From Streptomyces caniferus (lineage in GTDB: Bacteria; Actinomycetota; Actinomycetes; Streptomycetales; Streptomycetaceae), in assembly GCF_009811555.1 (NCBI RefSeq), contig NZ_BLIN01000003.1, positions 310,001 to 374,000 of the forward strand: a stretch of DNA of 64,000 nt, written 5' to 3'. Both the position numbers and the translations under genes were made by a program. Shown here piece after piece: positions 37,248 to 56,492 of the stretch. The first letter of the stretch is position 1, and each line of letters starts with the position of its first letter. A model generated the notes under the pieces. The model did no database searches. It worked only from the letters and a program-made list of their open reading frames with translations, and was not told the DNA's origin.

Positions 37248-37391
37248 ATCCGCCCTGTCCAGGGCCGTACCGGTGAAACCCATAATCGGACAGGGTGAAC
37301 GTGTGAGGCGGGCCGTGGCTCCTGCTTGGTCGTTGCGGGCATCCGGGATAGCAACATCCCGGGAACCATCAATGAGGTGCAGGAGCACACT

Positions 37392-37766
37392 GTGAAGAAC
37401 ATGGCACGTGTCAATGTTGTGGTGGCAGGAGCTTGCGGCCTGTTCCTGGCCGCGGGCGGGGCAGCGCCCACCCTGGCGTGGGCCGGATCCGGCGGCGACG
37501 GGGTCTCGAACAGCAACACCATCGCCCGCTTCGACGCCCGCTTCAACTGCGGGCACCGGGCCAGGTTCTGCATCAACGGGCCGGTGCTCAGCGGAAATCC
37601 GCGGCAGTCGGAGAACGTCCATGTCGCCGGCTCCAACAGCAACAGCGGCAGCCCGAAGACCTCCCAGGGAAACACCAACGACGACAGCGGCGGCACGACC
37701 GGCGCCGCGAAGAAGTCCAGCAACAACCAGCAGGCCATCGGCTCCTACGGCAGCCAGAAGCTGTAA
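37392..37766 (+). CDS. Small secreted Asn/Ser/Gly-rich protein with CINGPV motif (first of pair)
   Basis: A 124-residue exported protein. After VKNMARVN a hydrophobic stretch ends near APTLAWA. The mature part has two Cys 8 residues apart (FNCGHRARFCINGPVLSGNP) and then a low-complexity tail rich in Asn, Ser, Gly and Lys. GTG at 37392 has AGGAG six bases upstream. The motif CINGPV.SGN recurs in the convergent gene at 37907-38317, so the two are diverged paralogues. They are not chaplins: the chaplin domain with its conserved spacing is not present. The function is unknown; a cell-surface role is likely. Confidence 0.75.
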   Translation: MKNMARVNVVVAGACGLFLAAGGAAPTLAWAGSGGDGVSNSNTIARFDARFNCGHRARFCINGPVLSGNPRQSENVHVAGSNSNSGSPKTSQGNTNDDSGGTTGAAKKSSNNQQAIGSYGSQKL

Positions 37767-37779
37767 CAGCACACTGATT

Positions 37780-37808
37780 CCACCGGCCCCGTGCCCCGGG
37801 GCCGGTGG
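37780..37808. terminator. Hairpin terminator, first of two
   Basis: CCACCGGCCCCG with CGGGGCCGGTGG, five-base loop, just after the first small secreted protein gene. Confidence 0.65.
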
Positions 37809-37826
37809 GATGCCGATGCGGAAACG

Positions 37827-37860
37827 ACGAGCGCCCGGCGGATCTCCGCCGGGCGCTCGT
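37827..37860. terminator. Hairpin terminator, second of two
   Basis: A perfect 16-base palindromic stem, ACGAGCGCCCGGCGGA with TCCGCCGGGCGCTCGT, two-base centre. With the preceding hairpin it separates the convergent small secreted protein genes. Confidence 0.7.
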
Positions 37861-37906
37861 GCGCGGGCCGTCGGACGTACCGGGTCCGTCGGGCGCCACG
37901 TCCGGA

Positions 37907-38317
37907 TCAGTGGAAGAGCAGGCCTCCGAGGATCCGCTGCACGTTGTTGGAGCTCCCCGTGGAAGCACCCGTGACGGAGTTGGCGCCGTTGGTGGTTCCG
38001 TTGGTGTTGGAGAGGTTGCCGCTGTTGTTCGGGTTTCCGTGGTTGATGAAGTTGCCGCTGTTGAGGCTGTTTCCGCTGTGCACCGGACCGTTGATGCAGG
38101 CGTGGGGCGAGCCGAGCACCGGCGACTTGTAGTGGACCTGGCCGAGGCGGTTGTTGCACACCACCCCTCCGACCATGCCGGTCACGGTGCCGACATCGGC
38201 GTCCGCCACTGCCGAGAGCAGGGAGTCCGGAATCGTCACTGCTCGGGCGACCCCACCGCCGAGCAGCACCAGCCCGCACGCCCCGACGATGCTTCCCGCC
38301 CGCATAATTCTTCTCAC
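37907..38317 (-). CDS. Small secreted Asn/Gly-repeat protein with CINGPV motif (second of pair)
   Basis: A 136-residue exported protein. The signal peptide is RAGSIVGACGLVLLGGGVARA. The mature part has Cys in VVCNNRLGQ and in HACINGPVHSGN, matching the motif of the convergent neighbour. It then runs into repeats of the form N-S-G-N (SGNSLNSGNFINHGNPNNSG), which recall Asn/Gly ladder repeats of surface proteins. It ends in a hydrophobic RILGGLLFH. GTG at 38317 follows GAGGAGC; ATG four codons later is an alternative. The function is unknown; adhesion or self-assembly at the surface is plausible. Confidence 0.75.
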   Translation of the reverse strand: MRRIMRAGSIVGACGLVLLGGGVARAVTIPDSLLSAVADADVGTVTGMVGGVVCNNRLGQVHYKSPVLGSPHACINGPVHSGNSLNSGNFINHGNPNNSGNLSNTNGTTNGANSVTGASTGSSNNVQRILGGLLFH

Positions 38318-38521: not shown

Positions 38522-39805
38522 CTATGTGGTGCTGTGCGGATGGCAGGCCGTGACCGAGCGCGGCGGCCAGGTCTGGGGGTCGAGGATGCCCAGGACGTAG
38601 GCGCGGGCGACGAGGGCGGGGCGGGTCGGGGCGTCGAGGAGGTCGCGCAGACGGCTCAGGTGGTAGTCGACGGTCTGCCGGGACAGGTGCAGGGAGGTGG
38701 CGATCTCCGCGTTGCTGCGGCCGGCGGCCAGCAGGGACAGGATGCGGACCTGGCTTGCCGTCAGCGAGGGGTGGGCCTCGTGGGCCAGGCTCTGGTGGGT
38801 GACGACCGCCCAGACGCTCGTGGCACGGTCCGCGCTCCGGCCGACCGTGGTGAGGTGCAGCCGGGCGCGGCGCTGCCGGCCACGGGCGTCCTGGAACACG
38901 GCGGAGGTCTGTATCCGCCGGCTGCGGCGCGCTATCAGGTCGTGCCAACTGCGCAGCAGTGCCCCTAACTCCGGGGCGGGGGCCAGCACCGTGTGCGCCC
39001 GGCGGCCGACGAGGTCCGAGAGCCGGGTCTGCAGCAACTCGGCGGCCGCCGCGCTCGCCTGCTGGATCCGTCCGCCCGCGGAGATCAGGGCACAGGCCAG
39101 CCCGCTGTGGTCGCGCAGCGCGTGCAGGTTCTCCTCGGCCTCCCGGCGCTGGCGCAGGGCGCGGGTGTAGTCGCTGATGTCGACGTAGATGCCGGCGACG
39201 CAGGTCTGGCCCCCTTCCCGGACGGGGAAGCGATGGCCGACCGCCTGCCCGCTGGTGCCGTCGGAGCGGTGGTAGGTGAGGGTGTGCCGCACGGGCTTGC
39301 CGCGGGCGAGCACCTCCCGGTCCAGGGCGATGACCTGCGGGGAGTCGGCGGTGCCGTCGACGTCCGTGATGTACGCGCCGATGACGTGCTCCGGCGTGGT
39401 CCCGTAGAGGTGGGCGTAGGCGTGGTTCGCCCAGAGGTAGCGCCCGTTCGCGTCCCGGATGAAGGCCGCGGCGGGGGCGAGGTCCGCGAAGGCGTCGTAG
39501 CGGCGCACGCCCGGTGCCCGCGCGGCGACCTCCACCGCCAGGCCACGGGAGCGGCCCTGGCGGGGCACGCCGAGGGGCCAGTTCACATCGAAGACACGAC
39601 CGTCGAACTGGGCTTGCCAATGGCTGGTTTCAGGTGCTGCGGCAGGTTCGGGGAGCTCTCTTCGCACGGTGTCGAGGAATCGCTGGGCCGTCACCGTGTC
39701 GTCGAAGGCACCACCGCCGCTGTCGATCACGCGCAACTCACGATCGGCCTCCCACCAGGACACCGGGAGGCGTTCCAGCAGCGACTTCAGACTGGTCTCG
39801 TCCAC
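38522..39805 (-). CDS. PAS-domain LuxR-type regulator with TTA codon
   Basis: A 427-residue regulator. PAS-like sensor domains lie at the start (LPVSWWEADRELRVIDSGG), near residues 125-240 (AAAFIRDANGRYLWANHAYAHLYG) and near 250-350. The C-terminal LuxR helix-turn-helix is LTASQVRILSLLAAGRSNAE followed by LHLSRQTVDYHLSRLRDLL. GTG at 39805 follows AAAAGGGG six bases upstream; the frame continues open further upstream. The Leu codon at 38966-38968 (complement) is TTA, typical of pathway-specific regulators under bldA control. It is divergent from the ATP-grasp operon and is its likely regulator. Confidence 0.87.
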   Translation of the reverse strand: MDETSLKSLLERLPVSWWEADRELRVIDSGGGAFDDTVTAQRFLDTVRRELPEPAAAPETSHWQAQFDGRVFDVNWPLGVPRQGRSRGLAVEVAARAPGVRRYDAFADLAPAAAFIRDANGRYLWANHAYAHLYGTTPEHVIGAYITDVDGTADSPQVIALDREVLARGKPVRHTLTYHRSDGTSGQAVGHRFPVREGGQTCVAGIYVDISDYTRALRQRREAEENLHALRDHSGLACALISAGGRIQQASAAAAELLQTRLSDLVGRRAHTVLAPAPELGALLRSWHDLIARRSRRIQTSAVFQDARGRQRRARLHLTTVGRSADRATSVWAVVTHQSLAHEAHPSLTASQVRILSLLAAGRSNAEIATSLHLSRQTVDYHLSRLRDLLDAPTRPALVARAYVLGILDPQTWPPRSVTACHPHSTT

Positions 39806-40135
39806 GACGGGCCCCTTTTGTGGTGAAGAGTTCAATGGTTTTGGACGGCGCGCCATGGCCATAGGTATCCCCCAGCGCTGCGCGACATGCCCGGTTCTCG
39901 GCCGATCTGGCGCGGCCGCGCGCCTCCGCGTCGCCGCGGCCGCCATACGGCATCACGGAACCTTCACTGCTGATCAACGGTATCCACAACTCTGGCATTT
40001 GCCTGAGCGGTTGCGGCCCGATGCGGGGAACGGTGTGCCGCATGGCTGCTTCGCTTGAGGCACGGCGTCCGGATGTGAGATACGGACGTCCCCGGCCGTT
40101 TGGTCCATACCCGTATGAAGAGGAGTCGGATTCCA
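39806..40135. other. 330-base divergent regulatory gap, no gene supported
   Basis: Lies between the PAS-LuxR gene and the ATP-grasp operon. It contains a CGTCCG-N11-CGGACG inverted repeat at 40066-40088, 48 bases before the ATP-grasp start, a possible regulator site. Short open frames here have no start signal or domain. Confidence 0.35.
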
Positions 40136-41506
40136 GTGAGCAAGGTGCTGTTCGTGTATGCCAAGGGCGGACCGCCCTTGGGGTACGCCCTGTCACGGGT
40201 CGCCGCACGGTCGGCAGTGCACCTGCTGGCGCTCAGCGCGCTCCCGCCCACCGTGGCCGCGTCCGCGGACCGGCTGTGCGCCTCGGTGCTGAGCCCGTCC
40301 GAATGCGAACGGCGTGACCTGGTGTCCCTGATCGTCTCCCGGGCCCAGGCGGTGGGCGCGGACGCGGTCGTCACCTTCTCCGAGTACGCGGTCGTCGCCG
40401 TCGCGGAGGCCTGCGAGAAGCTCGGCCTCGCCGGGGCGGGCGGCTCCTGCGCGCTCGCCCGCGACAAGCGGATGATGCGGCGCACCTGGCAGGACCAGGG
40501 CATATCCCAGCCCCGGTTCCGTCCCGTCGCCACCGAGCAGGATCTGCACGACGCGGCCGCCGCGCTCCGGTTCCCCCTGCTGCTCAAGGCCGCCTGGAGC
40601 GCCGGCTCCACCGCCCACCGGACGATCCGCCACGCCGACGAGGTGCCGGCGGCCTGGGAGCGGGCGCGGGAGGTGATGGCCGAATCCGCGCAGCTGGGGT
40701 ACGCCGAGCTCCATGTGGCCGGTGCCGGGGCGGACTTCCTCGTGGAGGAGATCGTGCAGGGCACCGCGTCGGAGTGGTTCGACCAGGACGGCTGGGGCGA
40801 CTACGTCAGCGTCGAGGGCGTCGTGGTGGACGGCGAGTTCCGCCCGGTGTGTCTCAGCGGGCGGATGCCGACGGTGGAGCCGTTCACCGAGCGTGCCGGC
40901 ATCACCCCCGCCGCGCTGCCGCACGACGCCCAGCGGCGCATCGTGGCCCTCGCGCGCGATGCCGTCGACGCGCTGGGGCTGCGCAACTGCGGTACCCACA
41001 CCGAGATCAAGCTCGGCGCCGACGGGCGGATGTGGGTGATCGAGACCGCCGCCCGGTTCGGCGGGGCGATGACCGTCCCGCAGATCGAGGAGGTCTTCGG
41101 CCTGGACCTGATCGGCATGCTCACCGACCATCTGCTGGGGCGTCCGGTCTCCTGGCCCGCCGAGGCCCGCACCCCGCAGGAGGCGAACGGCGCGGCCGGC
41201 TCGCTGGTCGTCCTGGCCGTCGACGGCGCCGGTGAGGCCTGGCCGGACCGGCGCCTCTGGGACTTCCCGACGGTGCGCGAGACGGTGCCCGTCAGCGCGG
41301 GCAGCCGCCTGTCCGTGGTGGCCGAGAACTCCCTCCCGGACGGGACGCTGGTGCCGGTGTACGACCCGGCCGCGGGCGCCAACACCATGGCGGCGCTGTG
41401 CCTGTTGTCCGCCACCGATCCGGAGACCGTGATCCGCGACTTCCGGACCCTGGTGGACGCCCTCCCGCAGATCCTGCCCCACGGCACCACGGAGGCACAG
41501 TCATGA
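40136..41506 (+). CDS. ATP-grasp carboxylate-amine/thiol ligase-like protein
   Basis: A 456-residue protein of the ATP-grasp superfamily, which joins a carboxylate to an amine or other nucleophile through an acyl phosphate. The N-terminal pre-ATP-grasp part is VLFVYAKGGPPLGYALSRVA. The central part has FPLLLKAAWSAGSTAHRTIR and FLVEEIVQGTASEWF; the metal site is in HTEIKLGADGRMWVIETAARFGG. The order resembles L-amino-acid ligases and natural-product peptide-bond formers. GTG at 40136 lies after GAGGAG; ATG at 40115 is an alternative. It is the first gene of a coupled operon and its stop overlaps the next gene. Confidence 0.88.
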   Translation: MSKVLFVYAKGGPPLGYALSRVAARSAVHLLALSALPPTVAASADRLCASVLSPSECERRDLVSLIVSRAQAVGADAVVTFSEYAVVAVAEACEKLGLAGAGGSCALARDKRMMRRTWQDQGISQPRFRPVATEQDLHDAAAALRFPLLLKAAWSAGSTAHRTIRHADEVPAAWERAREVMAESAQLGYAELHVAGAGADFLVEEIVQGTASEWFDQDGWGDYVSVEGVVVDGEFRPVCLSGRMPTVEPFTERAGITPAALPHDAQRRIVALARDAVDALGLRNCGTHTEIKLGADGRMWVIETAARFGGAMTVPQIEEVFGLDLIGMLTDHLLGRPVSWPAEARTPQEANGAAGSLVVLAVDGAGEAWPDRRLWDFPTVRETVPVSAGSRLSVVAENSLPDGTLVPVYDPAAGANTMAALCLLSATDPETVIRDFRTLVDALPQILPHGTTEAQS

Positions 41507-43515
41507 CCACCACCGTCCTGCCCTCCGGCGCACCGGGCCCGGCCACCGACCGCACCGTCGTCGGCGAGAACCTCTCCCTGCCGCTCTTCCGCACCCTCTC
41601 CGGCGTCCTGGCCGGCCACCCGTACCTCAAGGTCGTGGTGGACCGGATCGAGAACACCTGGCATCTGCTGGACACCGCGGCCCACCCGTTCCACGTCAAC
41701 TACATCGCCACCCGCGTGCTCGGCATGGAACTCGCCGACCTGGACTCCTGCCTGGACGCGTTCAACGCCTCGGTCTACATGGATCCCGAGCGCCGCTTCC
41801 TGCTGGGTGTGCTCTCGCTGCACACCGACGAGGACACCGAGGGCCGGGAGCGGCCCTTCCTGGTCATGGAGACGACCGAGGCCGACACCATGAACGGCCG
41901 GCTGCTGGAGGAGTTCTACACCTTCGTCCGGCACCGGGTCGACGGCCGGCTGCCGCTGCTGCTGAAGCCGGCGAACCACGGGCAGGAGCACGAACTCGCC
42001 GCGATCAGCGACGTCCACGTGCCCCGGATCCTCGGCCACGAGCTCTTCGGCAACCGCACCCGCACCCCGCTCAACCTCGGCGAGGCCGTCGGACGGCTGC
42101 GCTACTTCCGTACCCCGGAGGAGTACACCGCCGCGGCCGCCGGGCTCGGCTGGTCCGACATCGTGGCCATGTCGTCGCTGCCGGACGATGTGCCGCGGGT
42201 GGCGGGCTTCATCAACACCGCGCCCGGGACACCGCTCTCGCACACCAACGTCCTCGCCTCCGGCTGGGGCATCCCCAACGCGATCGTCCGCGACCTGGAC
42301 CGCCTCGTGGCGGCGGACGACCTGGACGACGCCTGGATCCGCTACCAGGTGCAGGACGACGAGATCACCCTGGCCCCGCTGGCGCACGTCCCCGCACTGG
42401 ACGCCCCGGCCTGGCACCAGCAGCGGATCCGGATGGAACCGCCGCTGCTGGAGGATGTGCCCGCGCTGTTCCTGCACCGGCTGCGCCGCGCCGACCAGGA
42501 CCGGTACGGCACCAAGGCGGCCAGCCTCGGGGAACTCCATCACGTCCTCGACAGCCGGTCCGCCGACCTCACCACCTTCTACGGGCAGCCGAGGCCGCCC
42601 CGCAGCGATCTCTACGGGCACCTCGCGGCCCGTCTGGGCACCCCGGACGCCTCGGGCGCCGAACTGCGCGACCTGGCCGCCGACTTCGTGGCCGGCACCA
42701 TCGCCGCGCCCGACGGCATCGCCCTCCCCTTCGCGCTGCAGCACCGCTTCCTGACGTCCTCGCCGGCCGTGCAGCAGGGCCTGGGCAAGCTCAAGATGGC
42801 CCTCGAACTCGACGCCCTCGACGTCCTGGACGCGCTCTGTCTGCATCTGCAGCAGCTCATCCGGAACACCCCCATGCCCGACGAGGTGACCCGGCAGATC
42901 ACCCAGGCACTGCCCGACGGACCCGACGCCGGCCGCCGCCTGGTGGTGCGCTCCTCCTCCAACGCCGAGGACCTGCCCGGCTTCTCCGCCGCCGGGGTCT
43001 ACGACTCGGTCAGCACCGTCCACGGCGCGGACGAACTCCTCGATGCGGTACGCCAGGTGTGGGCCTCCCTGTTGTCCCCGCGCAGCGTCCGGCTGCGCCA
43101 CCAGGCGGGCATCTCCCTCGACGACACGTACATGGGCGTGATCATCCAGCAGTACGTGCCCGCGGACCTCGGCGGTGTCCTGGTGACCTGCAACCCGACC
43201 CGGCGCACGGACTTCCGCAATGTCTACGTCAACTGCTCGCCCGGCTCGCCCGAGACGGTCGTCGACGGCACGACGCTGCCGCTGCAGTACCTCTACAACA
43301 CGGTCGAGGGCGGCGGCCGCACCGTGGCCCTCGGCTCGTCCGGCAAGGACCTGCCCGTCGGCACCCGGGACAAGCTGGCCCGCCTGGCCCTGACCGGACG
43401 GCTGCTGCAGTCCCACTTCAGCGAGGGCGATGTGGACCATCCGCTCGACATCGAGTGGCTGATGACCGATCAGGGGGACTTCCGCCTGGTCCAGATCCGC
43501 CCCTACGCGCTGTGA
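41503..43515 (+). CDS. PEP-synthase/dikinase-like protein with swapped domain order
   Basis: A 670-residue protein. A unique N-terminal region (1-190) is followed by a swivelling phosphohistidine domain, GTPLSHTNVLASGWGIPNA with His247 as the likely phosphorylated residue. Last comes a PEP/pyruvate-dikinase ATP-binding domain (RRLVVRSSSNAEDLPGFSAA with Arg483, then GVIIQQYVPADLGGVLVTCN, and EWLMTDQGDFRLVQIRPYAL at the end). PEP synthase has ATP-binding domain first, histidine second and a PEP barrel last; here the order is reversed and the barrel is absent, closer to glucan water dikinases. It probably transfers the ATP beta-phosphate to a small substrate. ATGA-coupled to the ATP-grasp gene. 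Confidence 0.82.
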   Translation: MTTTVLPSGAPGPATDRTVVGENLSLPLFRTLSGVLAGHPYLKVVVDRIENTWHLLDTAAHPFHVNYIATRVLGMELADLDSCLDAFNASVYMDPERRFLLGVLSLHTDEDTEGRERPFLVMETTEADTMNGRLLEEFYTFVRHRVDGRLPLLLKPANHGQEHELAAISDVHVPRILGHELFGNRTRTPLNLGEAVGRLRYFRTPEEYTAAAAGLGWSDIVAMSSLPDDVPRVAGFINTAPGTPLSHTNVLASGWGIPNAIVRDLDRLVAADDLDDAWIRYQVQDDEITLAPLAHVPALDAPAWHQQRIRMEPPLLEDVPALFLHRLRRADQDRYGTKAASLGELHHVLDSRSADLTTFYGQPRPPRSDLYGHLAARLGTPDASGAELRDLAADFVAGTIAAPDGIALPFALQHRFLTSSPAVQQGLGKLKMALELDALDVLDALCLHLQQLIRNTPMPDEVTRQITQALPDGPDAGRRLVVRSSSNAEDLPGFSAAGVYDSVSTVHGADELLDAVRQVWASLLSPRSVRLRHQAGISLDDTYMGVIIQQYVPADLGGVLVTCNPTRRTDFRNVYVNCSPGSPETVVDGTTLPLQYLYNTVEGGGRTVALGSSGKDLPVGTRDKLARLALTGRLLQSHFSEGDVDHPLDIEWLMTDQGDFRLVQIRPYAL

Positions 43516-44837
43516 TCCGCCCGTTCGGCGGCCTGCGGGGAGCCCGTGGCCCCCGGGCGTCGGCCGTGCCCCTGCCCCCGCGGGCCCGCCGGATCATCCG
43601 GCTCAACAACGGCTTCCAGCTGCTGTTCAACCTGTTGTGGTGGATGCCGGTCTTCTACGCCTACCAGCGGGAGGCCGGGCTCTCCGACGGGCAGATCTTC
43701 GGCATCCAGAGCATCTACTACATCGCGTTCTGCCTGTTCGAGATCCCGACCGGGCTCGTGGCCGACCGGATCGGTGCCCGCAACTGTCTGCGGGCCGGTG
43801 CCGTCGTGATGACCGCGGCGAACCTCGCCCCGGTCCTCTCCCCCAGCTACACCGGCTTCCTGGTGCACTTCCTGGCCATCGCCGCCGGCCGCTCGCTGAC
43901 CTCGGGCGCCGCCAGCGCCTATCTCTACGACGGCCTGGCCGCCGAGGGTGCCGGAGAGCACTACCTGAAGGCCGAGGGGCAGGCGCGGGCGCTGGGGCTG
44001 GCCGCGAAGGTGCTGTGCTGGCCGCTGGTCGGTCCGTTGATGGCCCTGGCGCATGCCACGCCGTATGTGCTGAGCGCCGCGAGCGCGGCGGGCTCGCTCG
44101 TCTGCGCCGTGGTGCTGCCGCGCCAGATCGCGCCGGAGGGACGCGACCGGGCCGGGAAGAGCCCGGGCGGCGGGCTCACGTTCCTGCGCGATGCCACCAC
44201 GGCGCTGCGCTGTGTGTGGGCCACGCCGTGGCTCGCCCTGCTCATGGTGCAGGGCGTGGCCGTCTTCACGCTCTCGCGGATCTGCCAGGTCAACCTCTTC
44301 CAGCCGGTGCTGCTGGACCACGGCATCCCGGAGGGCTCGCACGGCGGTGTGCTGGCCGCCATGACCGTCGCGGAGGCGGTGGCCTCGGCCCGGCCGCAGT
44401 GGCTCGGCTCGCGGCTGTCACCGGTGGCCTGGGTCTCGCTGCTCAGCCTCGCGATGGCGGCCGCGCTGGCGGGCAGCACCCTCGGCGGGCCCTGGACCGT
44501 CATCGCCCTGCTGTGCGTGTTCGCCGCGGTCACCGGGTTCGCCTATCCGCTGCAGCGCAAGCTGGTGAACGACGCCATTCCGGCGGGTGCGCCACGGGCC
44601 ACCCTGCTGTCCGTCGAGAGCATCGTGGACCGGGCCGTGTGCGCGCTGGCGGCCGTGGCCGCGGGCGTCTATCTCTCGGCGGGCCGGCTGGACGCGCTGC
44701 TGTGGCACAGCGCGGTGGTCACCGGCGTGGTGATGCTGGTCCTGCAGCTGGTCCTGCGGCGGGCCCCGGGACGGCCCCGCAAGCAGCCGGCCGCGGAGCC
44801 GGTCCCGGAGCTGGTCACCACGGCAGGAAACCCCTGA
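43512..44837 (+). CDS. MFS exporter
   Basis: A 441-residue, 12-helix transporter. The first helices read RLNNGFQLLFNLLWWMPVFYAYQ, and the loop after helix 2 has FEIPTGLVADRIGARN, a variant of the MFS motif A. A long basic loop near residue 220 (PEGRDRAGKSPGG) divides the halves. GTG overlaps the dikinase-like gene stop (GTGA), so it is coupled to the biosynthetic genes and probably exports their product or gives self-protection. Confidence 0.87.
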   Translation: MIRPFGGLRGARGPRASAVPLPPRARRIIRLNNGFQLLFNLLWWMPVFYAYQREAGLSDGQIFGIQSIYYIAFCLFEIPTGLVADRIGARNCLRAGAVVMTAANLAPVLSPSYTGFLVHFLAIAAGRSLTSGAASAYLYDGLAAEGAGEHYLKAEGQARALGLAAKVLCWPLVGPLMALAHATPYVLSAASAAGSLVCAVVLPRQIAPEGRDRAGKSPGGGLTFLRDATTALRCVWATPWLALLMVQGVAVFTLSRICQVNLFQPVLLDHGIPEGSHGGVLAAMTVAEAVASARPQWLGSRLSPVAWVSLLSLAMAAALAGSTLGGPWTVIALLCVFAAVTGFAYPLQRKLVNDAIPAGAPRATLLSVESIVDRAVCALAAVAAGVYLSAGRLDALLWHSAVVTGVVMLVLQLVLRRAPGRPRKQPAAEPVPELVTTAGNP

Positions 44838-44859
44838 GCATCACCGTCATACTGAGGGG

Positions 44860-45681
44860 GTGCGCGGTACCGGTGCCGGGCGCTACGGCGAAGGCATGTT
44901 CCGCCCGGAAGAGACCGGCGAGGCCGGTCGTATCGACCTGGGAGCGCTCGCCTACGACGAGGGGAGCGCCGCCCGGTTGGCGACGCTGGGCGCCGGTCCC
45001 GGCTGGAACTGCCTGGACGTGGGCGCGGGAACCGGCACCCTCGCCCGGTGGCTGCTGGAGTCCGCCGGTGTGACCACGGTCCTCGCGGTGGACCGTGACA
45101 CCCGGTTCCTCACCGCCCACGGCACACCTGGCCTGTCGGCGCTGAGCGCCGACATCACCGCGCCGGACTTCGATCCCGGCCGGTTCCAGCTGGTGCACGC
45201 GCGGTTCGTCCTGATGCATCTGCGCTCCTGGCGCCGCATGATCGCCAAACTGGTCTCGCTGGTCGCGCCCGACGGGGTGCTGGTGCTCAGCGACGCCGTG
45301 GACCTGACGAGCGCCGCCGCACTGAGCACCCCGTACACCACGGTCATGCGGGCGATGTGGCAGGCGCTGCGGGAGACCATCGGCACCGACATCTCGTGGG
45401 TGGCGGACTACCCGCAGCTCCTGCACGAGGAGGGGCTGTGCGAGGTGGCCGCCGAGATCCACGTTCCCCCGTTGGTGCCGGGCAGCGCGATCAGCCGCTT
45501 CTGGGCCGATACGTGGGACCGGGCCCGGGGCGCCGTGCTGGCGACCGGGCGGGTGGACGAGGCGCAGCTCGAACGGGCGGTGCACGATCTGTCCTCGCCC
45601 GGGTGCGCCGGCCTCTCCCCCGGGATGCTCACCGCTTGGGGATGGAGGACCGAGGAGGCCGCCCGTGACCACCACTTCTGA
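44860..45681 (+). CDS. SAM-dependent methyltransferase
   Basis: A 273-residue class I methyltransferase. Motif I is LDVGAGTGTLARWL; the acidic residue after strand 2 is in LAVDRD; motif for strand 4 is FQLVHARFVLMHLRSW, and DGVLVLSDAVDL follows. The C-terminal 90 residues form a cap that should set substrate choice. GTG at 44860 was used, with ATG at 44896 as an alternative; both have weakly placed purine-rich signals. It follows the exporter by 22 bases and overlaps the next gene by 17, so it belongs to the ATP-grasp operon. Confidence 0.85.
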   Translation: MRGTGAGRYGEGMFRPEETGEAGRIDLGALAYDEGSAARLATLGAGPGWNCLDVGAGTGTLARWLLESAGVTTVLAVDRDTRFLTAHGTPGLSALSADITAPDFDPGRFQLVHARFVLMHLRSWRRMIAKLVSLVAPDGVLVLSDAVDLTSAAALSTPYTTVMRAMWQALRETIGTDISWVADYPQLLHEEGLCEVAAEIHVPPLVPGSAISRFWADTWDRARGAVLATGRVDEAQLERAVHDLSSPGCAGLSPGMLTAWGWRTEEAARDHHF

Positions 45682-46198
45682 CCGGGAGCGTGTCTGGGAG
45701 CTGCACACCACCAGCGAGTTCAGCAGCCTCGATCTCGACACGACGATGGCCACCATGTCGGACGAGCCGGAGGTGGTGCATGTGCCCACGGCGATGGGCG
45801 CCCGCGGCAGGGCGTCCGTGCGGCACTTCTACCGCCGCTGGTTCGTGGGGCACAACGCGGCGGATTTCGCCATCGCGCCGCTGACCCGCACCACGGGCGG
45901 GACGCGGCTCGTCGACGAAATGCTGGTCTCGTTCACCCACGACGTCGAGGTGCCGTGGATCCTCCCCGGTGTGCCGCCGACCGGACGGCGCGTCGAGATC
46001 CCGCTCATCGCGGTGGTCTCGTTCGAGGGCGCGCTGATCTCCGGTGAGCACATCTACTGGGACCAGGCCGCGGTGCTCGGCCAGACCGGCCTCCTCCCGG
46101 CGGAGACGATGGCGCGGCTGCCGGTCGTGGCGGATCAGCACGGGGCGCTGACGGACGGCCCGCTCAATCAGCTGGCCGGCGAACAGCGCCGCGGCTGA
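45665..46198 (+). CDS. SnoaL-like (NTF2-fold) protein
   Basis: A 177-residue protein with a cone-shaped NTF2-like fold, judged by the pattern RVWELHTTSEFSSLDLDTTMATMSDEPEVVHVPT, then GRASVRHFYRRWF and VDEMLVSFTHDVEVPWILPG. Proteins of this group include polyketide cyclases, small isomerases, hydrolases and binding proteins; catalytic residues cannot be assigned. GTG at 45665 lies inside the end of the methyltransferase gene. As the last gene of the operon it probably acts on the pathway intermediate. Confidence 0.78.
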   Translation: MTTTSDRERVWELHTTSEFSSLDLDTTMATMSDEPEVVHVPTAMGARGRASVRHFYRRWFVGHNAADFAIAPLTRTTGGTRLVDEMLVSFTHDVEVPWILPGVPPTGRRVEIPLIAVVSFEGALISGEHIYWDQAAVLGQTGLLPAETMARLPVVADQHGALTDGPLNQLAGEQRRG

Positions 46199-46283: not shown

Positions 46284-47423
46284 TCAGCCGGCCTTGGGGA
46301 GTTGCTGGGTGGAGCAGTGGATGCCGCCGCCGCCCTCGCCGAGGTGGTCGACGGGCACCGGCACCACCTTCCGCCCCGGGTACAGCTCCCGCAGGACGGC
46401 CGCGGCCCGGTCGTCGGCCTTCCGGTCGCCGAAGCGGGGCATGATGACCCCTCCGTTGACCACGTAGTAGTTCACATAGCAGGCCAGGAAGCCCTTCCCC
46501 CGGCGCCCGATGTCGGCGGGCTCGGGCAGTTCGACGACATCGAGCCGCTTCCCCCGGGCGTCGACGGCCCGTTCCAGGACCGTGCGGGCCTGTTCGTAGG
46601 CGGGGGTGAAGGCGTTCGGGCGGGCGTGCTCGGCCGGGGTGCTCAGGACCACGACGCCGGGTTCGGAGAACCGTGCCAGCGCATCGATGTGATAGTCCGT
46701 GATGTCCTTGCCCTTGACGCCCTTCACCCAGATCACCGTGGTGGCGCCGAACAGGTCCTCCAGCGCCCGCTCGATGTCCTTGCGGGAGGCGCCGGGGTTG
46801 CGGTTGTCGTTGACCAGCGAGCTCTCCGCGACCAGCAGGGTCCCCCGGCCATCGCCCTCCACCGCCCCGCCCTCGGCGGTGATCGGCGCCTTGATCCTGG
46901 TGAGGCGCTCGTCGTCCAGGACCGTGCGGGCGACCCGGGCGTCGCGGCCGTGCTCCTGCTTGTTGCCCCAGCCGTTGAAGTTGAGGTCGACGCCGGCGAC
47001 GCCGTCGGGCCCGAGGACGAAGACCGGGCCGCTGTCCCGCATCCACAGGTCGTCCACCGGGACCGGGACGACCTCCACGCCGGACCCGCACGCCCGACGG
47101 GCCGCCTGCGCCTCCTGTTCGTTGGCCAGAAGGGCCACCGGCTCGAACTCGGCGATGGTACGGGCGATGCGGGCGATGTCCTCGCGCACACCGGCGAGGT
47201 CCGGCCCCCAGATCCGGCGGGTGGGCCACGCCATATAGGTCGACTCGTGCGGATGGGCCTCCTCGGGCAGCCGCCATCCGCCGCCTGACTCGGCGCCCGC
47301 GGGGACCGCGCTCCCTCCGCGCGCCGCGGGCCGGCCGCCGTCCTGGGCGCCGCAGGCACCCAGGGCTCCGCCTACGGCCGCGACCATCGCCGCTTGCAGT
47401 GTCCGACGTCGGGATATATCCAT
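46284..47423 (-). CDS. Agmatine deiminase-family protein, Tat-exported lipoprotein
   Basis: A 379-residue member of the agmatine deiminase/peptidylarginine deiminase fold. Catalytic features are DDLWMRDSGPVFVLG, EGGAVEGDGRGTLLV, the DYHID segment and the nucleophile Cys in GGGGIHCSTQQLP near the C-terminus. Unusually it carries a twin-arginine signal with lipobox (SRRRTLQAAMVAAVGGALGAC), so it acts outside the cell, whereas agmatine deiminases of polyamine metabolism are cytoplasmic. ATG at 47423 follows GGGGG seven bases upstream. It is divergent from a TetR gene, with a palindrome 11 bases before the start codon. Confidence 0.88.
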   Translation of the reverse strand: MDISRRRTLQAAMVAAVGGALGACGAQDGGRPAARGGSAVPAGAESGGGWRLPEEAHPHESTYMAWPTRRIWGPDLAGVREDIARIARTIAEFEPVALLANEQEAQAARRACGSGVEVVPVPVDDLWMRDSGPVFVLGPDGVAGVDLNFNGWGNKQEHGRDARVARTVLDDERLTRIKAPITAEGGAVEGDGRGTLLVAESSLVNDNRNPGASRKDIERALEDLFGATTVIWVKGVKGKDITDYHIDALARFSEPGVVVLSTPAEHARPNAFTPAYEQARTVLERAVDARGKRLDVVELPEPADIGRRGKGFLACYVNYYVVNGGVIMPRFGDRKADDRAAAVLRELYPGRKVVPVPVDHLGEGGGGIHCSTQQLPKAG

Positions 47424-47433
47424 GATCAAGCCC

Positions 47434-51362: not shown

Positions 51363-54300
51363 ATGCTTCCGCTCTCCTCCTCGCAGGAGATCGTCTGGCT
51401 GCACGAACAGGTGCAACCGGGCAGCCGCGCCTACAACTTCACCGCCGCACTCGACCTGTGGGGCACCCTCGACACCGAGGCGCTGCGCCGTGGACTCGCC
51501 GCCACCCTCGACCGCCACCCCGGTCTGCGGCTGGAACTCGTCGCCGTCGCCGGGGCGATGCCGGGGCAGCGGGTCGCCGAGGCCTGTGTGCCGCGGCTGC
51601 ACACGGTGGACCTGAGCGGGGAGGCGGACCCGGAGCGCGCGTTCCAAGAGCTGCTGCGCACCGAGGCGGAGACTCCGCTCGACACCTTCGAGGCACCGCT
51701 GCTGCGCTGGACGCTGGTCCGGCTCGCGGACGAGCGGCACCGGCTCATCCACGTCGAACACCACCTGATCCACGACGGTCACTCGTTCGCGATCCTGCTG
51801 CGCGACGTGTTCTCCGTCTACCGGGGCCACGTCCTGGGCGAGCCGGTGGAGCTGCCGTCCGCGCCGTCGTACGCCGACCACGTCCGGGCGCGTACCCGGG
51901 ACGAGGAGGCCGCGGAGCGGCGGGACGGTCTGGAGTTCTGGGCCGGTGAACTGCGCGAGATGTCCTACGACATGCCGCTGCCCGGTCTGACCCGGCCCGG
52001 CTCCCGGCGCCGGCACCACGGCGGACAGCTGCGGCAGTCGATCGGTGCGGATCTGGCGGAGGCGCTGCGCGGCCATGCCCGTGAGCGCGGTCTGACGCCG
52101 TTCGCCACGCTCCTGGGGCTCTTCGCCGAACTGCTGCGCCGGCACAGCGGCCGCTCGCAGATGGTGATCGGCACCGCGGTAGGCAACCGCCCGCGCGGTT
52201 TCGAGGGCGCGGTGGGCATGTTCGTCAACACCATCCCGCTCGCGCTCCGGCTGGACCCGGCCGCCCCGGCCGAGGAGTCCATGGACGAGGTGACCGACAC
52301 CCTCATCCGTGCGCTGCCGCACCAGGAGGTGCCGATCCAGGAGCTGACCCGCACGCTCGGCCTGCACACCTCGGGCGCCGACAACCCGCTGTTCAGCGTC
52401 ATGTTCAGCGCCCACGACGCCGAGCTGCCCGAGGTCGACGTCCCCGGTCTGGACATCACCCTGTTCGAGGGCTTCAACACCGGCACCACCCGCTTCGACC
52501 TGGACGTCGTGCTGCTGCCGGACGACCGGCGCGGGGTCGGCCCCCGGCACGGCGCGGCGGGGATGACCCTGGTCTGGGACTACGACGCCGACATGTTCGG
52601 CGAGGACGTGGCGAAGCTGCTCGCCGGACGGTTCCTGGACCTGCTGCGGGCGTACCTCGACGCGCCCGGCGCCGCCCTGGCCGACCTGGCTTTGCCGGCC
52701 GCGCCGCAGGCCCTCCCGGCCGCCGCCGCGCCGGCGCCGGAACACGATCCGCTCGACCCCGCGACCGCGCACGACGCATCCCTGCCCGCCCTGCTCGTCG
52801 GCGCCCGCCGGATCACCTACGGCGACCTCGATGCCCAGGTCACCTCGCTGGCGGAGCGGATGCGGGCGGCGGGAGTGACCGCCGGGCAGCCGGTGGCCGC
52901 CGTGCTGCCGCGCGGTGCCGACTCGGTCGTGGCGCTGCTGGCCTGTCTGCGGACCCGGGCGGTGTACTGCCCGCTGTCGCCGTCCGACCCGCAGGCCCGC
53001 CTCGAACTGCTGCTGGGCCGGCTGGGTCCGGCGCTGGTGCTGACCTCCGCGGACGCCTCGGTCACGCTGCCCGACGGGCTGCCGACGGCGACGGTCGACG
53101 CCCCGGTCCTGCCGCCGGCCCGGGCCGCCGAGGTCGTGCCCGGTGCCGCCTACATCATCCACACCTCCGGCTCGACGGGCGTGCCCAAGCCCGTCGCCGT
53201 CGGCCGTGCGGCGCTGGAGAACCATCTGACGGGCGCCGCCGACCGGTTCGGGCTCGGCCCGGGCGACCGGGTGCTGCTGTTCGCCCAGCCGTCGTTCGAC
53301 GTGGCCCTCGAAGAGGTGCTGCCGTCGCTGTACGCCGGGGCGTGCCTGGTCGCCCCCGAGCGCGAGGTACCCACCGGCACCGAGCTGGCCGCACTGCTGG
53401 TCGCCGCCCGGGTCACCGTGGCCAACCTGCCGACGAGTTACTTCCTCGCCACCCGCGAGGAGATGCGCCCCGTACTCCGCGACGGGCACTGGGCGCCGCG
53501 GCTGCTGGTGCTCGGCGGGGAACGCCTCCCGGCGGACGTGATGCGGGCCTACCTGGCCGACTCCGACAGCACCGTGCTCAATGTCTACGGCGTCACGGAA
53601 GCCGCCATCAGCTCCACCGTCCAGGAGATCACCCGGGACGGGCTCGCCGACGGCGCGGAGATTCCGCTCGGCACCGAGCTGCCCGGCGAACGGATCCATG
53701 TCCTGGACGCCCACCACCGGCCGCTGCCGGACGGCGCGGTCGGTGAACTGGCCATCGCCGGAGCCGGGTTGGCGGAGGGGTACGTCGGCAACCCGGAGAC
53801 CACCGCCGCCCGGTTCATCGACGTCGAGGCCCTCGGCGGCGAGCGGGTCTACCTCACCGGCGACCTCGGCTACCGCGGCCTCGACGGACTGCTCTACTTC
53901 CTGGGACGCCGCGACCACCAGGTCAAACTGCGGGGCTACCGCATCGAGCTGGAGGAGGTGGAGGCCGCCGCCTCCGCCGCGCTCGGCGGCCGGTCCTGCG
54001 CCGTCGTCCTGGACCGTGACGCCGCGGGCGGGCCCCGGCTGGTCGGCTTCCTGGAGAGTGCGGACGACGGTGCGCCGTGGGACGAGCAGGCGTTGCACAC
54101 GGAGCTGAGCCGCCGGCTGCCGAGCGCCCTGGTACCGGGGCGCTGGGCACGGCTCGATGCCATGCCGCGGCTGGCCGGGGGCAAGCCGAACCGCGTCGCG
54201 CTGACCCGCCAGGCCTCTGCGCTGGAGCCGGCCGTCCCCGTCGAGGAGAACCCGGGCGCACCCGCGCCGCTGCCGTCCGATCCGATGACGGAGCTGCTGG

Positions 54301-54551
54301 CCGAGGGCTGGCGGGAGGCGCTGGGCCACGGCCGCTTCGACGCGTCCTCGGACTTCTTCCGGTCCGGCGGCCATTCGCTGCTCGCCGCGCAGTTGGCGGC
54401 CTGGCTGGAACCGCGGCTGGGGCAGCGTCCGCCGCTGCGGCTGCTCTTCCAGAACCCGGTGCTGGCCGACCAGGCCACCGCGCTCGCGGCCGTCGGCACC
54501 CCCGCCGTGTCCGCCCCCGCCGCCTCGACCACTGTGACGGAGTCCCGATGA
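51363..54551 (+). CDS. NRPS module C-A-T
   Basis: A 1062-residue module. The condensation domain has HHLIHDG at 133-139 and GMFVNTIPLALR. The adenylation domain (about 460-950) has IIHTSGSTGVPKP, NVYGVTEAAISS, YLTGDLGYRGLDG and the GGKPNR lysine region. The carrier Ser is 1005 in FRSGGHSLLAAQ. Reading the specificity positions from FAQPSFDVALEEVL onward gives roughly D-V-E-N-V-G-V-I-S-K; the Glu at the third place suggests a basic amino acid such as ornithine or arginine, as an inference only. The stop overlaps the next gene (ATGA). Confidence 0.92.
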   Translation: MLPLSSSQEIVWLHEQVQPGSRAYNFTAALDLWGTLDTEALRRGLAATLDRHPGLRLELVAVAGAMPGQRVAEACVPRLHTVDLSGEADPERAFQELLRTEAETPLDTFEAPLLRWTLVRLADERHRLIHVEHHLIHDGHSFAILLRDVFSVYRGHVLGEPVELPSAPSYADHVRARTRDEEAAERRDGLEFWAGELREMSYDMPLPGLTRPGSRRRHHGGQLRQSIGADLAEALRGHARERGLTPFATLLGLFAELLRRHSGRSQMVIGTAVGNRPRGFEGAVGMFVNTIPLALRLDPAAPAEESMDEVTDTLIRALPHQEVPIQELTRTLGLHTSGADNPLFSVMFSAHDAELPEVDVPGLDITLFEGFNTGTTRFDLDVVLLPDDRRGVGPRHGAAGMTLVWDYDADMFGEDVAKLLAGRFLDLLRAYLDAPGAALADLALPAAPQALPAAAAPAPEHDPLDPATAHDASLPALLVGARRITYGDLDAQVTSLAERMRAAGVTAGQPVAAVLPRGADSVVALLACLRTRAVYCPLSPSDPQARLELLLGRLGPALVLTSADASVTLPDGLPTATVDAPVLPPARAAEVVPGAAYIIHTSGSTGVPKPVAVGRAALENHLTGAADRFGLGPGDRVLLFAQPSFDVALEEVLPSLYAGACLVAPEREVPTGTELAALLVAARVTVANLPTSYFLATREEMRPVLRDGHWAPRLLVLGGERLPADVMRAYLADSDSTVLNVYGVTEAAISSTVQEITRDGLADGAEIPLGTELPGERIHVLDAHHRPLPDGAVGELAIAGAGLAEGYVGNPETTAARFIDVEALGGERVYLTGDLGYRGLDGLLYFLGRRDHQVKLRGYRIELEEVEAAASAALGGRSCAVVLDRDAAGGPRLVGFLESADDGAPWDEQALHTELSRRLPSALVPGRWARLDAMPRLAGGKPNRVALTRQASALEPAVPVEENPGAPAPLPSDPMTELLAEGWREALGHGRFDASSDFFRSGGHSLLAAQLAAWLEPRLGQRPPLRLLFQNPVLADQATALAAVGTPAVSAPAASTTVTESR

Positions 54552-56491
54552 CCCAGCCGACGACCGCCCGGACGGCGGCCCCGACGACGGCCGCCGGCAC
54601 CCGGCGGACCGACCCGTACAGCAGCACGCTCAGCATCGCCCGCACCGCCGCCCCGGCCACCGAGGACCCGGGCGGAGTGCTCGCCCTCTTCGAGGAGTGG
54701 GCCCGGCGTTCGCCGGAGGCTCCCGCGGTGATCGACGGTGCCCACACCTGGACGTACCGGCAGATCGACGACGCCGCCGAGGAGAGTGCGCGGGCGCTGC
54801 GCGACCGGGTGCGGCCCGGAGACCTGGTCGGCGTCTGCCTCGACCGTTCGGCCGCGCTGGTGGTGACCGCCGTCGCGCTCGCCAGGCTCGGCGCCGTCTA
54901 TCTGCCGATGGGCCCCCGCCCCGGCGAGCGCCGCACCGAGGCCGTCACCGAGGACCTCGACGTCGCCTGTCTGATCGGCGATCCCGAGGTCCTGCCGCCC
55001 CGGCACCGGGCGGCCGAGCACCTGCCGCTGGCGCTGCCCGGCGAGGGCGCCAACGCCACCGCCACGGTGGTGGCGGCGTTCGCCGCGCCCGCCGCCACGG
55101 CCCGTCGCGCCCCCTCCGGGGCGTTCTACGCCGTGCTGACCTCGGGCTCCACCGGCCGCCCCAAGGCGGTGGCGGTCGGCGAGCCCGCGCTGGCCGCGCT
55201 GTTGGACTGGCACCGTGCCACGAGCGGTCTGGCCCCCGGCGACCGGCAGTCCCTGCTGATCGGCGTCGCGTTCGACCCGCATCTGCTGGAGCTGTGGGCC
55301 GGGCTGACGTCCGGTGCCGCGCTGGTGCCCGCGCCGGACGAGGTCCGCTGGGACCCGATGGTGCTGGCCGACTGGTGGCGGGAGTCCGCGGTGTCGGTGT
55401 GCGTCGCGGCCACCCCGATGGTGGAGCCGCTGCTGGAGCGGCCCTGGCCACAGGACCTGACACTGCGTCATCTGTTCGTGGGCGGCGACCGGATGCGCCG
55501 CCGGCCCGGCGCGGACGTGACCGCCGCCGTCCACAACGCCTACGGTCCGGCCGAGGCCACCGTGGTCTCCACCGTGTACACCATGCACGGCTCGGACAGC
55601 GCGGCGGGCACCGGGTCCGCGCCGCCGATCGGCCGCCCCCTCCCGGGGGTGACCGTGGTCGTCGCCGACGCGGACGGCCGGCCCGTCGAGCGGGGCGCGG
55701 AGGGTGAACTCCTCATCGGCGGAGGCGGTCTGGCGCTCGGCTACCTCGATCCCGAACTGACCGCGCGCCGCTTTCGCGCGATGCCCGAGGGGCTCGACCT
55801 GCCCGGCGTGGAGCGCCTGTACCGCACCGGGGACCGGGTGCGGATGCCGGATGACGGGGAGCTGGAGTTCGTCGGCCGCCTCGACGACCAGGTCAAGATC
55901 AGTGGGGTACGGATCGAACCGGCCGAGGTGGAGGCCGCGTTCGAGAAGGACCCGGCGGTGCTCGGCGCCGTCGTCGCCGCGCCGCGTACCGCCGACGGCC
56001 GCACCCGCCTGGTGGCGTACGTCCGGGCTGCGGCCGGCGCGGTGCTCACCGCGGAGGCGCTGCTGCCTGCCGTACGCGCCTGGCTGCCGGAGCAGGCGGT
56101 GCCCTCGGACGTACGGATCGTGGACTCCTTCCCCCTGGACGCCAACGGCAAGGTGGACCGGGCCGAGCTGGCCCGGCGGGCGGCCGGCGGCCACGAGCCC
56201 CGCCCCGGCGACGCCCCCGAGGACGGCGGCCTGCCCGCCGACGCCACCCCCGGCGAGCGGCTGGTGCTGAGCGCCGTCCGTGAGCTGCTCGACCGGCCCG
56301 GGACCTCGCTGACGGACAGCTTCACCGGCTCCGGCGGCACCTCGCTGCTCGCCGCCCGGCTGCTGACCGTCATCGAGAAGGAGAGCGGGGTACGGCTGCG
56401 CGCCCCCGAACTGCTGCGGCAGCCGGACCTGCGCGCGGTGGCGCTGCTCGTCGACACCCGCCTCGCCGCCCGGCAGCCGGCGGGAGCCTGA
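54548..56491 (+). CDS. NRPS adenylation-carrier didomain (A-T)
   Basis: A 647-residue protein with an adenylation domain (AVLTSGSTGRPKAVAV, NAYGPAEATVVS, YRTGDRVRMPDDGE, FPLDANGKVDR) and a carrier domain with Ser599 in GSGGTSLLAAR. There is no condensation domain, so it loads an amino acid for a C domain on another protein. The specificity positions read roughly D-P-L-V-F-G-A-V-V-K, hydrophobic but not matching a code known to me. It overlaps the preceding gene; the following A-T gene starts at the next ATG, two bases past the stop. Confidence 0.91.
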   Translation: MTQPTTARTAAPTTAAGTRRTDPYSSTLSIARTAAPATEDPGGVLALFEEWARRSPEAPAVIDGAHTWTYRQIDDAAEESARALRDRVRPGDLVGVCLDRSAALVVTAVALARLGAVYLPMGPRPGERRTEAVTEDLDVACLIGDPEVLPPRHRAAEHLPLALPGEGANATATVVAAFAAPAATARRAPSGAFYAVLTSGSTGRPKAVAVGEPALAALLDWHRATSGLAPGDRQSLLIGVAFDPHLLELWAGLTSGAALVPAPDEVRWDPMVLADWWRESAVSVCVAATPMVEPLLERPWPQDLTLRHLFVGGDRMRRRPGADVTAAVHNAYGPAEATVVSTVYTMHGSDSAAGTGSAPPIGRPLPGVTVVVADADGRPVERGAEGELLIGGGGLALGYLDPELTARRFRAMPEGLDLPGVERLYRTGDRVRMPDDGELEFVGRLDDQVKISGVRIEPAEVEAAFEKDPAVLGAVVAAPRTADGRTRLVAYVRAAAGAVLTAEALLPAVRAWLPEQAVPSDVRIVDSFPLDANGKVDRAELARRAAGGHEPRPGDAPEDGGLPADATPGERLVLSAVRELLDRPGTSLTDSFTGSGGTSLLAARLLTVIEKESGVRLRAPELLRQPDLRAVALLVDTRLAARQPAGA

Positions 56492-56492
56492 G

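Follow-up and report, generated by a model that had tools for sequence, protein, structure and literature searches.

Gene content of the locus

We analyzed a stretch of 64,000 nt from Streptomyces caniferus (hereafter the window, with coordinates counted from its first letter), which contains an operon encoding an ATP-grasp ligase, a dikinase and an exporter, together with two further genes and a divergent regulator. The five open reading frames (ORFs) at 40136-46198, with the overlaps claimed by an initial interpretation made without database searches (the sequence-only reading), were re-derived from the window DNA; in particular, the ATP-grasp and dikinase genes overlap by ATGA.

38522..39811, minus strand: PAS-LuxR (GerE) regulator, divergent (Pfam PAS_4 and GerE; TTA at codon 282)
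39990..40007, no strand assigned: operator-like palindrome CTCTGGCATTTGCCTGAG, between the regulator and the ATP-grasp gene
40136..41506, plus strand: ATP-grasp L-amino-acid (dipeptide) ligase, BacD-like (Pfam ATP-grasp_4; NCBIfam BacD, 6e-55)
41503..43515, plus strand: putative N-P-bond-forming dikinase (PPDK_N, PF01326, 1.6e-39)
43512..44837, plus strand: MFS exporter (Pfam MFS_1, PF07690)
44860..45681, plus strand: S-adenosylmethionine-dependent methyltransferase, accessory (Pfam Methyltransf_23/11/25)
45665..46198, plus strand: SnoaL-like protein, accessory (SnoaL_2, PF12680, 1.7e-7)

Conserved unit and its distribution

The ATP-grasp and dikinase genes occur together in all 95 loci compared (42 loci of a first set, 37 further non-duplicate Streptomyces loci forming a second set, and 16 loci from other Streptomycetaceae), one of the ATP-grasp genes being a fragment. 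All these loci were found via the dikinase, and dikinases too divergent to match lie outside the sample. In the first set, the flanks vary around a constant group of regulator, ATP-grasp, dikinase and MFS genes, with truncated genes in L016 and L025. The ATP-grasp, dikinase and MFS genes are likewise kept in 37/37 loci of the second set, two of them on linear plasmids. The MFS gene is present in 79/79 Streptomyces loci (L016 and L025 having truncated copies), and the regulator, at a threshold of at least 55% identity, adjoins the cassette in 74 of the 79, the L016 copy being a fragment. In the divergent loci L103-L107, with dikinases 49-60% identical, the regulator is missing or a weaker relative is found elsewhere. 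As judged by eye, L107 has the dikinase, MFS and ligase genes only, in an altered order, with no regulator and amid transposase-like genes.

The methyltransferase and SnoaL-like genes, which the sequence-only reading had counted as part of the set, turned out to be accessory: the former adjoins the cassette in 11 of the 79 other loci (three changes on the tree), and the latter in just one (L112, 91% identical). From the co-occurrence and neighbor counts, the unit comprises the ligase, the dikinase and the exporter, usually with the regulator. Moreover, the constant pairing, the changing flanks, the location on chromosomes and on two linear plasmids, and the bare unit of L107 imply that the product needs little else.

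The dikinase family was found in 46 of 392 Streptomyces genomes, 26 of 200 genomes of the family sample, five of 296 genomes in the class sample (each a Streptomyces) and, as full-length matches, in three of 396 genomes in the phylum sample, where four more genomes yielded partial, weak matches; each count includes the genome of the window. Among the database matches listed for the dikinase, entries are labeled in general terms, for example "PEP/pyruvate-binding domain-containing protein" or "phosphoenolpyruvate synthase". A HAD-like hydrolase gene was noticed by eye 3' of the MFS gene in L004, L005, L008, L009, L040 and L042.

Domain order and conserved residues of the dikinase

The dikinase is 670 aa long and consists of an N-terminal domain (residues ~20-183), a phosphohistidine domain (184-294, with His247) and an ATP domain (317-670), PPDK_N covering residues 399-668 according to Pfam. 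In the predicted structure, obtained with a diverse alignment of 67 rows, the phosphohistidine and ATP domains fold-match rifampin phosphotransferase, and among NCBIfam models the ATP domain is nearest to those of rifampin phosphotransferase and phosphoenolpyruvate (PEP) synthase. No PEP/pyruvate-binding barrel family was found in the protein by Pfam up to E 0.1. The proposed order, with the phosphohistidine domain ahead of the ATP domain and no PEP barrel, is thus borne out by Pfam, the model and the fold match, and the protein offers a compact model of the reversed arrangement. A first model from 18 near-identical sequences (predicted local distance difference test score, pLDDT, 60.6), in which the His domain was not resolved, was superseded by the 67-row one.

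His247, whose lack of conservation the sequence-only reading had named as evidence against itself, is invariant in all 67 aligned sequences, a set taking in the tal-type enzymes described below, and so are R483, E651, Q664 and R666, while K338 is found in 66/67. Of these, K338, R483, E651 and R666 presumably have the catalytic roles of their counterparts in rifampin phosphotransferase. In total, 98 positions are invariant across the 67 sequences, including the stretch TPLSH.N..A.GW..PN. Taken together, the PPDK_N domain, the invariant residues and the swivelling His domain of the model indicate that the protein is equipped with the complete dikinase machinery.

In glucan water dikinases, the phosphohistidine domain also precedes the ATP domain, which would suggest a similar enzyme with a polysaccharide substrate. 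The probability of this is negligible, as no carbohydrate-binding or starch-binding domain was found in the window dikinase by Pfam up to E 0.1, and the enzyme is partnered with a dipeptide ligase and an exporter. Matches of the ATP domain to the NCBIfam models of PigC and RedH might point to activation of a group for a second condensation step, the role of these proteins in prodigiosin synthesis, and to a phosphorus-free product. We consider this very unlikely, since the scores (68.7 bits for PigC and 75.7 for RedH) are far from the respective cut-offs of 1300 and 1350 and are exceeded by those of the PEP synthase and rifampin phosphotransferase models, the three-gene unit encodes no second coupling partner, and the tal pathway provides a precedent to the contrary.

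The dikinases of L030, L036 and L037 are 97-144 aa longer and carry low-complexity insertions, both between the domains and close to the C-terminus. In a distant member of the phylum, a lipoprotein-like protein (L072, 1-2565, minus strand) shows the same order, with a His motif (TPLAHVNVLALNRGIPN) and an ATP motif resembling that of dikinases, and hence the reversed arrangement may not be confined to biosynthetic cassettes.

Relation to the talopeptin and phosphoramidon pathway

In the loci from other Streptomycetaceae genera, the ATP-grasp and dikinase genes are paired in 16/16 cases, and six loci have the MFS gene. The remaining ten contain a deoxysugar-type glycosyltransferase gene in its place, nine of these genes being whole and one cut by a contig end (L150). 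EryCIII-like domains were found in both glycosyltransferases scanned, and the relatives of the L149 glycosyltransferase include the database entry "TalC, Streptomyces mozunensis" (A0A4P8VRN9). The nine whole glycosyltransferases are 75.9-97.4% identical to TalC (97.4% in L164 and 76-89% in the eight others), and the L150 piece is 84% identical. Neither the window nor any of the 86 scanned Streptomyces cassette loci (79 non-duplicate) gave a TalC-like match with E up to 1e-5. We take TalC to be the enzyme adding the sugar in the tal pathway, and TalE to be the kinase of the same pathway.

The dikinases of the glycosyltransferase-type loci form a single clade (one change; Shimodaira-Hasegawa-like approximate likelihood ratio test, SH-aLRT, 99). 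Compared with the pair beside TalC (L149-L154, L160 and L162-L164), the window dikinase is 45-49% identical and the ATP-grasp protein 44-47% identical. As the evident kinase candidate in the short TalC operons, the dikinase was taken to represent the TalE family. The biosynthesis of talopeptin and phosphoramidon involves an N-P-bond-forming kinase, according to the title of PMC6482885, and both compounds are described, in the review PMC6429109, as N-phosphoryl dipeptide metalloprotease inhibitors acting on thermolysin.

This homology makes it very likely that the core chemistry is that of a known product family. No product assigned to the exporter-type cassette was found in the open-access literature searched; the talopeptin paper may mention such clusters. 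The impression of an undescribed operon therefore holds for the exporter-type cassette and fails for the core pair, with its homologs 44-49% identical beside TalC; prior assignment of homologs to a product, named by the sequence-only reading as an argument against itself, is very likely for the core chemistry and was not found for the exporter type in that literature. The cassette is thus less novel than first supposed, being at the same time more specific and testable, and the swap between the exporter and glycosyltransferase types would let the product class be read from genomes.

The ligase and its pocket

The best PDB profile matches of the ATP-grasp protein are BacD structures (3wo1, 3wnz and 3vmm; E 1.6e-73 to 1.2e-72), with the alignment extending over ~330 residues and including the catalytic core. 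On the NCBIfam BacD model NF053745 the protein scores 186.5 bits, not reaching the equivalog cut-off of 850. The proximity to BacD would be compatible with a bacilysin-like dipeptide antibiotic produced by the ATP-grasp enzyme and the exporter, the dikinase having a side role, and related ATP-grasp genes without this dikinase do occur in other clusters (L141-L144). This reading is nevertheless highly improbable given the ATP-grasp/dikinase pairing in 95/95 loci having this dikinase and the ATGA overlap of the two genes in the window.

The position of the pocket residue in the motif AARF-x-G-x is occupied by Trp in BacD structures, with Ala in 3wo1; we take it to be Trp332 of BacD, the gatekeeper for the first amino acid (a literature search gave nothing relevant). 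Ala, the residue of the window ligase, is found here in 74 of 78 readable Streptomyces ligases and Val in the other four (L104-L107), while Leu is present in 10/10 tal-type ligases and Val in 5/5 other non-Streptomyces exporter-type ligases read. These differences suggest, as a prediction from the alignments, different first amino acids among the cassette types, and the residue is a testable candidate for control of the first amino acid.

Tal-like clusters were also sought among Streptomyces ATP-grasp homologs without this dikinase, and the four relatives found there (L141-L144, 42-46% identical) occupy other clusters; hence, the ligase family serves other pathways too. By eye, the neighbors of the BacD-like ligase (42%) in L143 and L144 are genes for an asparagine-synthase-like protein, an MFS-like exporter and a protein of 340-353 aa, a group that resembles another small dipeptide pathway, and in L141 and L142 the ligase (45%) is accompanied by cysteine-synthase-like, TauD-like, aldolase-like and more ATP-grasp genes.

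Thermolysin-type protease neighbors

The talopeptin/phosphoramidon lead had been written down before the flanking genes were clustered. Among 123 flanking genes of the 42 first-set loci, the commonest assignment in Pfam is the thermolysin family M4, with nine members. In all nine cases it is the first gene beyond the cassette, and M4 genes occur on either strand and either side. Given 271 M4 genes in the 42 genomes and 1,150 bases per gene, 0.07 adjacent cases would be expected by chance. In the second set, adjacency was observed in 2/37 loci, giving 11/79 Streptomyces loci overall (a partial M4 match ~8 kb beyond the MFS gene of L022 was left out of this count). The linkage between the inhibitor and protease genes thus appears to be real but episodic.

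Regulator, TTA codons and palindrome

A divergent PAS-LuxR regulator with a TTA codon, in the style of natural-product regulators, had been proposed, and both the Pfam domains and the TTA codon (282) were found. Besides the window regulator, those of 26 of the 42 first-set loci contain TTA, the place of the codon differing between loci; over the aligned parts, TTA occurs in 36/74 regulators, 18/79 ligases, 4/79 dikinases and 1/79 exporters.

The intergenic region between the regulator and ligase genes contains a palindrome with the consensus CTCAGGCAWWTGCCTGAG. With at most three of 14 fixed positions off, it is found in 71 of 73 intergenic regions, compared with 22 of 1337 size-matched random stretches, and is a likely candidate operator. 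In the genome of the window strain, the loose pattern (at most one mismatch) occurs in 158 + 165 places, versus 251 + 256 for the reversed control. As it is no commoner than the control, no regulon is claimed.

Proposed pathway and product

The prediction of a small-molecule pathway with ligation, dikinase-type phosphorylation and export is upheld by the gene content, the domains and the homologs beside TalC. More specifically, we consider it probable that the operon encodes a pathway akin to that of talopeptin/phosphoramidon, of the exporter type and lacking the sugar, and makes an N-phosphoryl dipeptide for export, since a ligase, an N-kinase and an exporter without a sugar transferase would be expected to yield the free N-phosphoryl dipeptide. 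We infer the reactions, the amino acids and the target from the gene content, its conservation, the modeled architecture, the kinship with the pair beside TalC and the M4 adjacency in relatives.

The ATP-grasp enzyme, by homology to BacD, would ligate two amino acids via an aminoacyl phosphate. The C-terminal domain of the dikinase would bind ATP and transfer its beta-phosphate to His247 in the middle, swivelling domain, with AMP and inorganic phosphate as by-products, a step suggested by the domains and the invariant residues. Phospho-His247 would then swing to the N-terminal domain holding the dipeptide and phosphorylate its alpha-amino nitrogen, forming the P-N bond, and the unglycosylated product would be exported by the MFS protein. 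Its likely targets, as for phosphoramidon, talopeptin and FMPI, would be thermolysin-type (M4) zinc metalloproteases. The palindrome 39990-40007 is probably the site of action of the PAS-LuxR regulator, whose own synthesis would depend on the rare TTA codon, and the methyltransferase and SnoaL-like protein may decorate the product in the window strain.

Several observations weigh against this proposal. TalE is absent among the best 120 of 1068 and the best 120 of 1340 dikinase matches, and the presumed identity of TalE with the dikinase family of the cassette rests on the position beside TalC and on the title of a paper; L164, the locus closest to TalC, has a broken dikinase frame in the assembly. 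For the N-terminal, putatively substrate-binding domain of the dikinase there is no credible PDB sequence match (one chance match at E 1.3), and no listed fold-search row is confined to it, the searches having used a larger model rather than this domain alone. No M4 gene match was found in the whole window or in the 16 non-Streptomyces loci. Moreover, M4 adjacency is weaker in the second sample (2/37 versus 9/42), both cases being near lineages already seen, and the M4 label requires seven changes on the tree, four of them forced by well supported branches, which implies few independent events. Finally, the closest palindrome matches in the 600 bases preceding each M4 gene (11 in all) are 4 to 6 positions off, and thus the protease is not tied to the same regulator.

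Alternatively, the dikinase could phosphorylate a side chain (hydroxyl, guanidine, imidazole or amide), or a single amino acid prior to ligation, resulting in a phospho-amino-acid dipeptide with another target. Such specificities have parallels: the fold matches of the window dikinase include rifampin phosphotransferase, acting on rifampin, and HpeI, whose substrates are phenols. Moreover, the dikinase-family L-glutamine kinase Cj1418 from Campylobacter (once a putative PEP synthase/dikinase) is described as acting on the amide nitrogen, and identity between the window dikinase and the tal-type enzyme is no more than 45-49%. We regard this alternative as unlikely, because the same gene pair stands beside TalC, the adjacency of M4 proteases suits an N-phosphoryl inhibitor, and the 98 positions invariant in 67 sequences are shared with the tal-type enzymes.

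Returning to the N-phosphoryl dipeptide, a broader scheme can be put forward tentatively, with somewhat more doubt than confidence. The mobile ligase, N-kinase and exporter pathway, present in about one in nine Streptomyces species, might secrete a general class of sugar-free zinc-metalloprotease inhibitors, including FMPI. The residue equivalent to Trp332 (Leu in the tal type, Val in most of the divergent exporter types and Ala in the window type) might set the first amino acid, the one of the window being bulkier than Leu; the clade-specific methyltransferase might cap the phosphate or carboxylate, and in several lineages the cassette might travel with a thermolysin-like protease under its control. 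P-N bonds are rarely seen in natural products, and phosphoramidon serves as a standard protease inhibitor in the laboratory. If the proposed pathway is right, the 46 of 392 sampled Streptomyces genomes hold a three-gene route to P-N inhibitors, transferable to a laboratory host in one step.

Other genes in the window

Directly 3' of the operon, a gene at 46284-47429 (minus strand) encodes a peptidyl-arginine/agmatine deiminase of the Porphyromonas type (PF04371, 9e-107); of the 42 first-set loci, just L001 and L034 have it as well. The region 37377-38239 contains two small convergent ORFs that match no Pfam family, look N/G-rich and secreted by eye and have relatives in the same two loci. A small nonribosomal peptide synthetase cluster at 51363-61260 begins ~5 kb past the operon and encodes a protein with condensation, adenylation and peptidyl carrier protein (C/A/PCP) domains, two A/PCP proteins and a final protein combining condensation, PCP and NAD-epimerase-like C-terminal domains.

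Comparison with known systems

In the ATP-domain fold, the window dikinase resembles rifampin phosphotransferase and PEP synthase, and it also shares the phosphohistidine-domain fold with the former, but differs from both in the reversed domain order, the lack of the PEP/pyruvate barrel and a different N-terminal domain. Its domain order is like that of glucan water dikinase, from which it differs in having no starch-binding domain and in belonging to a small-molecule operon. BacD, the alanine-anticapsin ligase of bacilysin synthesis, is the nearest solved relative of the ATP-grasp enzyme, whose score is however far below the BacD equivalog cut-off and whose pocket residue is Ala instead of Trp (3wnz).

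As for whole pathways, the tal system (S. mozunensis, S. tanashiensis) and the window share an adjacent pair of homologous dikinase and ATP-grasp ligase genes, followed by TalC in relatives, and the window differs in having the MFS exporter and no TalC-like match; exporter-type cassettes are, moreover, usually accompanied by the PAS-LuxR regulator. No report of the genes for FMPI was found in the literature searched. FMPI from S. rishiriensis is phosphophenylalanylarginine (phospho-Phe-Arg), described in PMC6429109 as an unglycosylated phosphoramidate inhibitor active in the nM range. Such an unglycosylated N-phosphoryl dipeptide metalloprotease inhibitor is what the ligase, kinase and exporter of the window would give.

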